A stretch of DNA of 64,000 bases, taken from contig CP047880.1 in the NCBI GenBank assembly GCA_009911715.1, positions 1 to 64,000 of the forward strand, given 5' to 3'. The position numbers were made by a program, and so were the translations under genes. How positions within the stretch are numbered: position 1 is the first letter of the stretch; each line of letters begins with the position of its first letter. This DNA is from Methanomassiliicoccaceae archaeon DOK. GTDB lineage: Archaea > Thermoplasmatota > Thermoplasmata > Methanomassiliicoccales > Methanomethylophilaceae. This document shows positions 35,379 to 41,766 of this stretch, piece by piece. Below the pieces are notes generated by a model, which worked only from the letters and a program-made list of their open reading frames with translations, did no database searches and was not told the origin of the DNA.

Positions 35379-36242
35379 TCATTTTTCAAGCACTGAAATC
35401 CTGTCGGCCAGGGCCTTGAACGGTTCCGGTCCCCACTCACCGAGTTGCGACGGATCGATGAAGTTTATCACATCGCTTTTGGCAGATTCCCAGTCGAGAG
35501 TGTCGAATCTCTTCTTCAGTATGGTGACCAGTGTTTCGCGGTCGAGTCCCGTGGTGGGTTCGCACTTCTTGTCCAGTTGGGATTCGAGGCACCTTATGTC
35601 GATGGGGATGCCGTGCTCGATGTACCATCTGAAGTCGTAGAAATCCCTGCCCTTCACGCGGTTGCCCCAGTGGCGACAGAGGACCGCCGCCGTCTTCCCC
35701 GCGAACAGGACGGGGAGTGGTTCGGTCCGTACGGAATAGCACAGTGGGGAAGTCTTGCTGATAATCTCGCTTCTGGAGTACGGCGCCGGGTCCAGATCCA
35801 CATCCAGCTTCACGGTCACCAACTCCTGCGAGTGGGCATCTTCGACAACATTTTCAGAGAATCCCGCTGTTCTCAGTGCGTTCCGGAGGTTCATCTTGAT
35901 CTTGGCGGAGTACACCATCATCTCCCCTTTTGGTGGGCGGGTCTTGTACGACGGTTCGAAACCGAGGTCCTCTAGGTTCGAGCAGGTCCTCTCCAGATGC
36001 GGTCCGAAGTCGAAGCCGTAGTCCTTCTGGACAAGAGAGAAATCGAGATCCTCCGAGAATCTGTCAAGGCCGTACAGGATGCGCAGACAGGTTCCCCCGT
36101 GGAAGACCGCACAATCCGAGAAACCGCTCTCAGCCAGACCTGACAGGATCAGTTCCTGGAGTCCTTCTCTGAGCAGGTTCACGGCGGTGTCGAGGTCTTT
36201 CACACCGACGGGACAAAACAGTTCGGACGTATCTGGCTTCAT
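35379..36242 (-). CDS. AbiEii-type nucleotidyltransferase toxin
   Basis: This 287-residue protein has the nucleotidyltransferase motifs of the AbiEii/AbiGii toxin family: FHGGTCLRILYGLDRFSEDLDFSL-type core at residues 48-71 (GG, then S-x-DLDF), a third acidic VKLDVDLDP, and the later lysine motif AGKTAAVLCRHWGNRVKGRDFYD. Such toxins transfer nucleotides to RNA or GTP-binding targets and give phage abortive infection. It overlaps its antitoxin gene by four bases. Base composition is lower in GC than the ribosomal genes around it, consistent with transfer. Confidence 0.9.
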   Translation of the reverse strand: MKPDTSELFCPVGVKDLDTAVNLLREGLQELILSGLAESGFSDCAVFHGGTCLRILYGLDRFSEDLDFSLVQKDYGFDFGPHLERTCSNLEDLGFEPSYKTRPPKGEMMVYSAKIKMNLRNALRTAGFSENVVEDAHSQELVTVKLDVDLDPAPYSRSEIISKTSPLCYSVRTEPLPVLFAGKTAAVLCRHWGNRVKGRDFYDFRWYIEHGIPIDIRCLESQLDKKCEPTTGLDRETLVTILKKRFDTLDWESAKSDVINFIDPSQLGEWGPEPFKALADRISVLEK

Positions 36243-36826
36243 GAATGCTCCTGTAGGTAATGTCCGAGGGTTCTCAGGGTTGTGCAGTGGTAGAGTGAGG
36301 CGTAGTCCAGGATTGTACGTGCATCGAGTTCAAGTATGGCGTCCTCATCGAAGCGGAGGTCCTCGAACATCAGCGCTTCCAATCCTGTGTAGGATCTCGT
36401 CGGGGGCATCTTGGACAGCTTGTCGCATACAGCCTTCGCCGCCGATGCAATCGGGTAGCTGCGGTCTCCGTCTCCCCAGTATTCGATGCCGACAGGAAAG
36501 GCATTCTCCGGAATGTCGTAGTATACGAAATTGCCGAGTGCGTTACTGTACCTCTTGGTTTTGCGCTTGCCATATGTCGCGCTGGTGATCCAGACCACGC
36601 GCTCCGGGATTATGCTGTGTCTCATCAGTGCGTACTCGAACGAGATGTACGATGGCTCGCAGATGTGACTAGCCACAAGGTATGGCGGGGTTTCCGGATC
36701 CGTCTCATAAAGGTCGCGTCTCAGTCTGACAACCTCTCCGTTCTCGACCATGCGTCCGAGCTTGCAGGCCGGGCTCGAGTACGAGTCCGACAGTGAGTCG
36801 ATCATCAATTCCCCTTTGACAATCAT
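36239..36826 (-). CDS. AbiEi-type antitoxin/regulator
   Basis: This 195-residue protein resembles AbiEi antitoxins: an N-terminal winged-helix-like part (LGRMVENGEVVRLRRDLYET) followed by the CELL/AbiEi C-terminal domain with YISFEYALMRHSIIP, the YGKRKTKRYSN segment and LEALMFEDLR. These proteins bind inverted repeats in their own promoter and silence the toxin. The ATG at 36826 abuts a nested inverted repeat and has leaderless spacing to the central TATA; an ATG at 36805 is an alternative. Confidence 0.85.
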   Translation of the reverse strand: MIVKGELMIDSLSDSYSSPACKLGRMVENGEVVRLRRDLYETDPETPPYLVASHICEPSYISFEYALMRHSIIPERVVWITSATYGKRKTKRYSNALGNFVYYDIPENAFPVGIEYWGDGDRSYPIASAAKAVCDKLSKMPPTRSYTGLEALMFEDLRFDEDAILELDARTILDYASLYHCTTLRTLGHYLQEHS

Positions 36827-39100: not shown

Positions 39101-39400
39101 ATGGATTCGGACCAAAAGGTCATCGTGAGGCTCTCTTCCGAGACCGTGGGCGTTCTCCGCGCACTCGTCGACGAGGGGGAGTTCCGCTCGCTCTCCGACG
39201 CTGTCCGCTCCGTCCTGGACGGCTATGCGTCCGAGCGTCTGGCACAGGGTGTGAGGCCCGCGCCGGAGCACGGGGACGACGCGCTCAGCATCGAGGACCT
39301 CACCATCGACGGGTCCACGCTGGACGACGCGGTCAGGTCCGCTGCACGCGACTACGTCCGCCAGAGGACGAACCCAGGGGAGCGCCCATGGGGGATGTGA
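39101..39400 (+). CDS. ribbon-helix-helix protein coupled to FtsZ-like gene
   Basis: This 99-residue protein has an N-terminal ribbon-helix-helix fold: strand KVIVRLSSET, helix VGVLRALVDEG, then EFRSLSDAVRSVLDGYASERL. It has a hydrophilic C-terminal extension of about 45 residues with a second acidic helix. RHH proteins bind DNA as dimers. Its gene overlaps the FtsZ-like gene by 13 bases. In haloarchaea the RHH regulator CdrS is encoded in an operon with ftsZ2 and controls cell division. That is a suggestive parallel, but orthology is not shown. Confidence 0.82.
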   Translation: MDSDQKVIVRLSSETVGVLRALVDEGEFRSLSDAVRSVLDGYASERLAQGVRPAPEHGDDALSIEDLTIDGSTLDDAVRSAARDYVRQRTNPGERPWGM

Positions 39401-40206
39401 CCCTCTTCGTATGCGGAGGCGGCGCGAGGGCGATCCTGTCCGACGCGACCGAGGCCCCCGGCGTCCCGACGGTCTTCATGAACTCCAACAGCAGCAGCAC
39501 CATATCCATGGTGCCGGAGGACATGCCAGGCGCCTACGGGGACCCGTTCCTGGCCTACAGCCTGACCCTGGACAACAGCGACGAGATCCGCGAGAGGCTG
39601 CAGGGTGTCCGCGTCGTGATTCTCTTCTCCATACTCGGCGGCGGTTCCGGCATCGGCATGCCGCTGGGGATATCGGAGATAGCCCACGAGATGGGGTGCA
39701 GGGTCGTGTCCGTGATCGGACTCCCCATGGCCTTCGAGCTGGAGCGTCGCAAGAGGGCGATGGCGGTGCTGCCCCAGGTCCTGGACTACTCCGACCGCGT
39801 ATTCATCCTCGACATGGGGTCCATAAACAGGATCTACCCGGATGTGAAGTTCATCCACATCCTCAGGATGGCCTCACGCTCGATCGTGTTCGCAGTGGAC
39901 AATCTGGCACATATGATGGAGGGGCCGTTCTTCAGCACCTTCCCCAAGAAGATCTACACGTTCGCCTACACCAACGACCTGGACCCGTCGAAGGCGGTCA
40001 CCAGGGCGATGGACTCCACGATGTTCGAGACCAGCCCCGACTTCGGGAAGATGATAGTGCTCGTCAGCTCAGGCTTCGGCACCGCGCAGACCGAGTCGAT
40101 CTACTACACCATCGTGAGTATGACCGGCATCGTCCCGGACATCGTCAAGAGGGATGACAGGGAGGACACGAAGGTCCTGGTCTTCCTGCCGGTTCACGGG
40201 CTCTGA
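39388..40206 (+). CDS. compact divergent FtsZ/tubulin-superfamily protein
   Basis: This 272-residue protein keeps the FtsZ outline. It has a T1-like loop VCGGGARA at residues 8-15, then the tubulin signature GGGSGIGMP at 84-92 preceded by the hydrophobic strand VVILFSIL. After it come EIAHEMGCRVVSVIGLPMAFE and RRKRAMAVLPQVLDYSDRVFILD, as in FtsZ S5-H6. A C-terminal half ends in VLVSSGFGTAQTES and TKVLVFLPVHGL, like the FtsZ C-terminal domain. It is about 100 residues shorter than FtsZ, and no clear T7 NxDxxD loop is seen, so GTPase stimulation between subunits may be lost. It likely binds nucleotide; role in division or membrane shaping is inference. Confidence 0.75.
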   Translation: MGDVTLFVCGGGARAILSDATEAPGVPTVFMNSNSSSTISMVPEDMPGAYGDPFLAYSLTLDNSDEIRERLQGVRVVILFSILGGGSGIGMPLGISEIAHEMGCRVVSVIGLPMAFELERRKRAMAVLPQVLDYSDRVFILDMGSINRIYPDVKFIHILRMASRSIVFAVDNLAHMMEGPFFSTFPKKIYTFAYTNDLDPSKAVTRAMDSTMFETSPDFGKMIVLVSSGFGTAQTESIYYTIVSMTGIVPDIVKRDDREDTKVLVFLPVHGL

Positions 40207-40931
40207 CCCTTCTTCTCCCAGGGCTTGCCGTACCTCACGATCTTGGCCGCGTCGCCGAAGACCCCCATGATCGTGTTGTACTCGTACTTGGTCGGGAGCG
40301 CGCGCCCCATCATGCGCCTGAACATGACGGTGGTCATCTCCCTCCTGTTCGGCGGGTACTCGATGCCGTCCATGAGGTCGCCGAAGAACTCGAACATCAG
40401 CTCCTTCTCGTGCCTGTCCGCCGGCTCCGACCTCCTGGGCGTGTGCTCGGCCTGGAAGAACTCGTACATCACTATGTTGGCCGCGTGGGACAGGTTGAGG
40501 ATTGGGTACTCCTCGCCGGCGGGGATCGTGATGAGGACGTCGCACAGGTTCAGCTCGTCCTGCAGGAGCCCGATGTCCTCGCGTCCGAACAGGATCGCGA
40601 TCTTCTCGGGGTATCCGCGGCAGTGCTCGGCGAACTCGCGCACGGGCACGGGTATGCGGGTGTAGTTCCTGTCGCCCTTGGTCGTCACGCCGCTGGTCCC
40701 GACCACCAGGAAGACGCCTTCCAGCGCCTCCTCCAGCGTGTCGACGATGTGGACGTCGTCAAGGAGCCCGGAGCCGTGCTTGGCTCTGCGGTAGGCGTCG
40801 TCACCGAGCTCGCAGGGGTTGACCAGGTAGAGCTCGCTGACGTCGAAGTTGGCCATCGAACGGGCGATGGCGCCCACGTTACCCTCGTATTTCGGACCGA
40901 CGACGACGATGCGGATGTCAGGCATGCCCAT
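40194..40931 (-). CDS. TrmJ-like tRNA 2'-O-methyltransferase (SPOUT)
   Basis: This 245-residue SpoU/TrmJ-type RNA methyltransferase has the VVVGPKYEGNVGAIARSM start and the knot motifs VVGTSG, ILFGREDIGL and IPAGEEYPILNLSHAANIVMYE. Archaeal TrmJ methylates position 32 of tRNA. The ATG at 40931 is chosen because the family begins with this strand; an ATG at 40925 is also possible. Its 3' end overlaps the FtsZ-like gene by 13 bases and it is divergent from the pantoate ligase operon. Confidence 0.9.
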   Translation of the reverse strand: MGMPDIRIVVVGPKYEGNVGAIARSMANFDVSELYLVNPCELGDDAYRRAKHGSGLLDDVHIVDTLEEALEGVFLVVGTSGVTTKGDRNYTRIPVPVREFAEHCRGYPEKIAILFGREDIGLLQDELNLCDVLITIPAGEEYPILNLSHAANIVMYEFFQAEHTPRRSEPADRHEKELMFEFFGDLMDGIEYPPNRREMTTVMFRRMMGRALPTKYEYNTIMGVFGDAAKIVRYGKPWEKKGQSP

Positions 40932-41007
40932 GGCATCGGACTCAACTACTTGGTTCTGTGGGTCAGGATGGCAATCTATTAGGGGAGCGTCCGCAATCGC
41001 AGCGGAC

Positions 41008-41766
41008 GTGGACATTCCTAAGAGTCATCCAAGATACAAATCGCTCATGACCAGGGAGCGTCTGGCCGAGATGGTCCAGGCGGGCCTGGTCACCCCGACC
41101 GGCCTGATCTCCCACGGCAGGGGCGAGGCCTACGACTACCTGATGGGGGAGAGGAGCACCGAGGCGGCGCTGGAGGCCGAGAGGGCCGCTGCCGCATATC
41201 TCCTGAACGCCGAGAACCCGGTCATCTGCGTCAACGGCAACGCCGCCGCACTGGACCCGGAGGGCATAATCGCACTGGCGAAGCAGGTCCCGGCGAAGAT
41301 CGAGGTCAACCTGTTCCACCGCACACCCGAGCGCATGGAGGGCCTGATATCCTACCTGGAGTCCAAGGGCGCCGAGGGCGTCCTCGGCAGGGACCCCGAC
41401 AGCAGGATCCAGGGTCTGGAGCACGACCGCGCCCTGTGCACCTCCGAGGGCATCTACGGTAGCGACGTCATCCTGGTCCCGATCGAGGACGGGGACCGCG
41501 CCGAGGCCCTGGTCGCCATGGGGAAGAAGGTCATCTCCATAGACCTCAACCCGCTCTCGCGCACATCCAAGGCCGCGACAGTGCCCGTATGCGACGAGAT
41601 CTCCCGCGCCATAGAGAACATCTCGCGCTTCGTGGAGGAGCTCCGCGGGGACCGTGAAACAATAATTAAGACGTTGGACGACTTCTCCAACCAGGAGAAC
41701 CGCCGCCGCACCGTCGAGAGGATCTGCAGGTTCCTGATGGACGGGCTGGACGGAGGAGATGATTGA
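41008..41766 (+). CDS. 4-phosphopantoate--beta-alanine ligase (archaeal PPS)
   Basis: This 252-residue archaeal phosphopantothenate synthetase makes 4'-phosphopantothenate for coenzyme A. The N-terminal IPKSHPRYKSL and the GLISHGRGEAYDYLMGE block are the family's hallmark; NVNLFHRT-like VNLFHRTPERM and the late IDLNPLSRTSKAA follow. The GTG at 41008 gives the proper N terminus and lies at leaderless distance from a TATA-like CTATTAGG near 40976. It is the first gene of a five-gene operon. Confidence 0.9.
   Translation: MDIPKSHPRYKSLMTRERLAEMVQAGLVTPTGLISHGRGEAYDYLMGERSTEAALEAERAAAAYLLNAENPVICVNGNAAALDPEGIIALAKQVPAKIEVNLFHRTPERMEGLISYLESKGAEGVLGRDPDSRIQGLEHDRALCTSEGIYGSDVILVPIEDGDRAEALVAMGKKVISIDLNPLSRTSKAATVPVCDEISRAIENISRFVEELRGDRETIIKTLDDFSNQENRRRTVERICRFLMDGLDGGDD

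Follow-up and report, generated by a model that had tools for sequence, protein, structure and literature searches.

The window, a stretch of 64,000 nucleotides of contig CP047880.1 (GCA_009911715.1) of Methanomassiliicoccaceae archaeon DOK, contains two overlapping genes on the plus strand. The first (39101–39400) encodes a 99-amino-acid ribbon-helix-helix (RHH) protein and the second (39388–40206) a 272-amino-acid FtsZ homologue, hereafter called B. The stop of the RHH gene and the start of B share 13 bases (39388–39400), an overlap that is also present in the two nearest relatives (loci L003 and L004). Upstream on the same strand are the genes for ribosomal proteins L10 (37683–38690) and L12 (38710–39027). 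Downstream lies a convergent TrmJ/SpoU-type methylase (40194–41015, minus strand; PF00588), the 3' end of which overlaps that of B by 13 bases (40194–40206). Further upstream, an AbiEii-type nucleotidyltransferase (35379–36826, minus strand; PF08843, 102.8 bits) and an adjacent 195-amino-acid ORF without a Pfam match are inserted between the ribosomal genes L11 and L1 and are probably a type IV toxin–antitoxin pair. A sigma-70 promoter scan was uninformative, as this is an archaeon.

B is a reduced FtsZ homologue

The resemblance of B to FtsZ exceeds chance. B scores 37.8 bits against the Pfam Tubulin model PF00091 (cut-off 33), while TIGR00065 (FtsZ) is matched only over model positions 76–207 of 353, at 52.6 bits, far below the curated cut-off of 295.2 bits. 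The best PDB sequence match is Methanocaldococcus jannaschii FtsZ1 (MjFtsZ1; E = 2e-9), and all named PDB hits are FtsZ rather than CetZ or TubZ. An AlphaFold2 model built from six sequences (pLDDT 71.5, pTM 0.76) has a predicted tubulin/FtsZ fold, with MjFtsZ1 (PDB entry 1w5a; see also 1fsz) again the best Foldseek match (E = 7.8e-11, TM 0.72) despite only 18% identity. The model lacks helix H8 and one late strand.

In the alignment with FtsZ, CGGGA (39412–39426) coincides with the T1 nucleotide loop and GGGSGIG (39637–39657) with the T4 tubulin signature, of which it is a variant (canonical GGGTGTG). The T7 loop NxDxxD and helix H8 are absent and are replaced by the short motif GPFFSTF (39922–39942), with about ten residues missing relative to full-length FtsZ2. 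GPFFS is found in most type B proteins. The retained part of the C-terminal domain (39946–40203) is not matched by PF12327 (FtsZ_C), which has no match in the protein or in the genome, and it ends right after the last strand, without a SepF-binding tail. B is 92 residues shorter than MjFtsZ1 and about 80 residues shorter than the syntenic full-length relative (352 amino acids). The gene is maintained under purifying selection (dN/dS about 0.09–0.16), with dN = 0.065 and dS = 0.76 against L003 and dN = 0.108 and dS = 0.68 against L004.

The assignment of the first gene is weaker by sequence. It scores 16.3 bits on RHH_1 (cut-off 20.5) and 18.4 bits on the CdrS model NF058555 (cut-off 100), whereas the gene at the same place in sister families, a CdrS-like tandem-RHH gene of which it is the diverged positional equivalent, scores 42.1 and 64.5 bits, respectively. 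The latter is its best score, although it too remains below the CdrS cut-off. The predicted structure has an RHH-like helix order but is of low confidence (pLDDT 66), and only weak Foldseek matches to ParD-type RHH domains were obtained. The gene has a dN/dS of 0.07–0.10.

The earlier note, which described an RHH gene overlapping a compact, divergent FtsZ/tubulin homologue without a visible T7 loop, is thus correct in what it observed. A toxin–antitoxin-like pair might be suspected from the small overlapping RHH-first arrangement and from the weak matches of the RHH protein to ParD-type antitoxins, as might a frameshift or misassembly of a normal ftsZ. Both are very unlikely, since no toxin family is matched, the partner is a clear FtsZ2 descendant at an ancestral locus (see below) and the same architecture is found in tens of independent genomes.

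The locus in Methanomethylophilaceae and sister families

The relatives found by sequence are Methanomethylophilaceae. In this family the gene occupies a fixed place, L10–L12–(RHH)–B, convergent with TrmJ, the neighbour that marks the locus across the order. In sister families of the order Methanomassiliicoccales (loci L160, L164, L168, L173, L178 and L179) the place next to TrmJ holds an RHH gene and a full-length FtsZ of 345–367 amino acids, homologous to B over the whole length, with an NLDFAD-type T7 loop and PF12327 (70 bits in L160). It lies about 2–3 kb from the cluster ftsZ-ftsZ-secE-nusG-L11-L1-L10. Published surveys state that archaeal ftsZ1 sits with translation genes and ftsZ2 with an RHH/parD gene (PMC8178401; PMC9871819), and the cdrS-ftsZ2 locus of haloarchaea and other Euryarchaeota has been described (PMC7439475). 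In a tree of 41 rows, the FtsZ1 clade, including an approximate MjFtsZ1 sequence that served only as an anchor, is separated from B, the sister TrmJ-linked FtsZ and a second FtsZ-derived protein, A, with 100/100 support, although no named FtsZ2 reference sequence was included. B is therefore the reduced FtsZ2 of this family. Whether A derives from FtsZ2 or from an earlier split is not resolved by the tree (AU p = 0.25).

The genome of the window (1.89 Mb, one contig, 99.8% complete) has two PF00091 matches: B and the gene for A, at 977476–977937 of the contig (locus L001, 1456–2163; 235 amino acids). A is a GTPase domain that keeps the T1–T6 loops and ends after helix H7, before T7. No C-domain lies downstream of A in any frame; because PF12327 does not recognize the C-domain of B, this was checked with profiles constructed for the purpose. 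All 50 A loci examined have an RHH gene upstream on the same strand, which looks two-domain. In the genus of the window (g1), A ends in a conserved PI..LISA/PI.AFINA motif. In viral contigs no relatives of B were found, and only generic FtsZ for A.

The earlier note had suggested examining whether canonical ftsZ1 or ftsZ2 exist elsewhere in the genome. They do not, in this genome or in the family. With TIGR00065, none of 63 Methanomethylophilaceae genomes exceeds the cut-off, while all 33 genomes of other families in the order do, with 4–10 matches each. The latter include a clade of long (389–470 amino acids) FtsZ1-type copies with NLDY[AS]D T7 loops and mostly disordered-looking tails ending in IDFVR-like motifs. 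In the class, 114 of 166 genomes exceed the cut-off; the remainder are all 39 Methanomethylophilaceae genomes, 11 genomes of another family, f21 (G176–G178, G183–G189 and G200), with no FtsZ match at all, which are possibly the FtsZ-less Thermoplasmatales named in PMC11188069, and, by subtraction, two more, most likely the f21 genomes G181 and G182, the best matches of which are strong but weaker than the rest. Incomplete assembly cannot explain the absence, as several Methanomethylophilaceae genomes are single contigs.

The NxDxxD motif is present in 32 of 32 sister FtsZ sequences and in 0 of 48 type B proteins. It occurs in three of 47 A tails (NDDGFD), which we take as chance since it lies in unconserved tails. 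The alignments give a graded series: sister FtsZ2 is intact; the protein of L008 (genome G062) is full-length but with T7 changed to SVGMSK; in genera g7 and g8, T7 and H8 are deleted but the nucleotide loops are intact; in parts of g1 and g6, T4 is lost (GGEFGTD, GGDMGAV); and in genera g2, g10 and g11, B is gone and the RHH gene abuts TrmJ. Of the 48 B proteins, 35 keep GGGxGxG and 13 lack it. This order is a reading of the alignment and not a dated history. In several g1 and g6 species (among them G036, G040, G044, G048 and G009) it is the RHH gene that is gone, and B follows L12 directly. A sister-family genome (G090, family f5; L172, 3458–4689) likewise has RHH directly against TrmJ with no FtsZ2 between, an independent loss in a genome that still has FtsZ1-type genes.

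The RHH gene and B are thus separable both ways, which argues against a fixed module. It also weighs against the possibility that B is a sensor or co-regulator of its RHH partner, with a complex of the two tuning transcription of division or ribosomal genes. The overlap conserved in near relatives, the ancient RHH–FtsZ adjacency and the role of CdrS as a global regulator in Haloferax (PMC8406309) would fit such a function, but we consider it unlikely. Long branches, the loss of the T4 loop in 13 of 48 B proteins, the absence of the gene in three genera and in G090 and the disappearance of SepF and PRC-barrel proteins (see below) could suggest that B is a relic of FtsZ2 on its way to loss, with little function left. 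This too is unlikely given the intact frames and low dN/dS, the conservation of GPFFS and the C-domain over very divergent N-domains and the synteny kept over most of the family.

SepF (PF04472) is strong in nearly all sister-family genomes and diverged in most Methanomethylophilaceae genera. A profile built from SepF of the family recovered diverged SepF in most other genera but not in g1 or g6, apart from marginal partial hits, one of them inside a 906-amino-acid frame of a g1 genome. PRC-barrel proteins (PF05239, the CdpB domain) show the same pattern, being absent in four of four g1 and four of four g6 genomes tested and present in the other 14 genomes. All A and B tails lack the GID-type motif that archaeal FtsZ uses to bind SepF, while GID/DIDF-type tails are seen in many sister FtsZ1-type proteins. 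ESCRT-III (PF03357) was not detected in 96 genomes of the order, which is weak evidence because this model responds only weakly even in Sulfolobus, and Vps4_C gave no match in this genome and only weak partial matches in relatives. Several Thermoplasmata with FtsZ but without SepF or PRC-barrel, and others with none of the three, have been reported, as have ESCRT-III or Vps4 in some genera (PMC11188069); no mention of truncated FtsZ was found in the text searched. Nor did we find, outside subscription papers, any paper linking this family with truncated FtsZ.

A possible role as a pseudo-FtsZ

Our analysis establishes that this is the CdrS-ftsZ2 locus of a Methanomethylophilaceae archaeon, that FtsZ2 is here reduced to a protein without T7 and H8 and with a shortened C-domain, and that no intact FtsZ, only A and B, was found in the family. 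The locus differs from the known CdrS-FtsZ2 locus in these deletions, in an RHH protein diverged far below the CdrS cut-off and in the separability of the two genes. Everything that concerns function, including nucleotide binding, GTP hydrolysis, polymerization, protein–protein interaction and expression, is inferred. The interpretation of the earlier note is therefore partly supported: the FtsZ homology, the resemblance to the haloarchaeal locus in which CdrS is encoded with ftsZ2 and the missing T7 loop hold, whereas a role as a division or membrane-shaping module with altered polymer or GTPase behaviour remains conjecture.

In FtsZ, the T7 loop of one subunit supplies the residues that hydrolyse GTP in the next. 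As A and B both lack T7, a canonical treadmilling Z-ring made from either is unlikely. The C-domain of B is strongly conserved within the clade of the window (nearly invariant DREDTKVLVFLPV) while the N-domain and even T4 vary, which points to a binding role for the C-domain, although it is not better conserved in every comparison (83% against 82% between the window and L004). A keeps its GTP-binding loops (T4 in 44 of 47). Most likely, with a probability of about 0.55, B is a pseudo-FtsZ that cannot drive T7-dependent GTP hydrolysis and serves as a binding or regulatory partner rather than as a Z-ring subunit. The graded decay of the locus, the purifying selection on B and the non-detection of SepF and PRC-barrel proteins in the same two genera fit this reading. 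In this view its C-domain, the face that in FtsZ touches the GTP of the neighbour, would dock onto another protein to cap or regulate it. A is the prime candidate, although binding to A is a guess, and A would act as a GTP-bound switch. B would be auxiliary, as it is missing in g2, g10 and g11 while A stays and is thus not essential for whatever A does, and some B proteins may still bind nucleotide. Force for division would come from something not yet identified. The RHH protein is probably an ancestral CdrS-type transcription regulator whose coupling to B is inherited and not obligatory.

Alternatively, A and B together could be a split FtsZ in which A supplies the GTP face and B the C-domain face, co-assembling into a heterofilament that still forms a division ring. 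Complementary domains are kept, both genes lie, or ancestrally lay, beside an RHH gene and both are under purifying selection. However, neither has a T7 loop, three genera keep A without B, and A has no bottom face on which to continue a filament, so we regard this as unlikely.

FtsZ is treated as near-universal in Euryarchaeota, and presence calls by Pfam count these fragments as FtsZ. Here, a family of human, ruminant and insect gut methanogens seems to lack any FtsZ able to hydrolyse GTP through T7. It is possible, though tentative, that the whole family divides without any FtsZ filament, having lost FtsZ1 and turned its FtsZ2-side genes into a GTP-switch fragment and a catalytically dead pseudo-FtsZ, and that at least two genera have also dropped the SepF and PRC-barrel anchors, so that division there runs on an undescribed machine. 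With its graded series of preserved intermediates, the family gives a natural test of which parts of FtsZ division needs, and it marks a lineage where a new division mechanism may be found.
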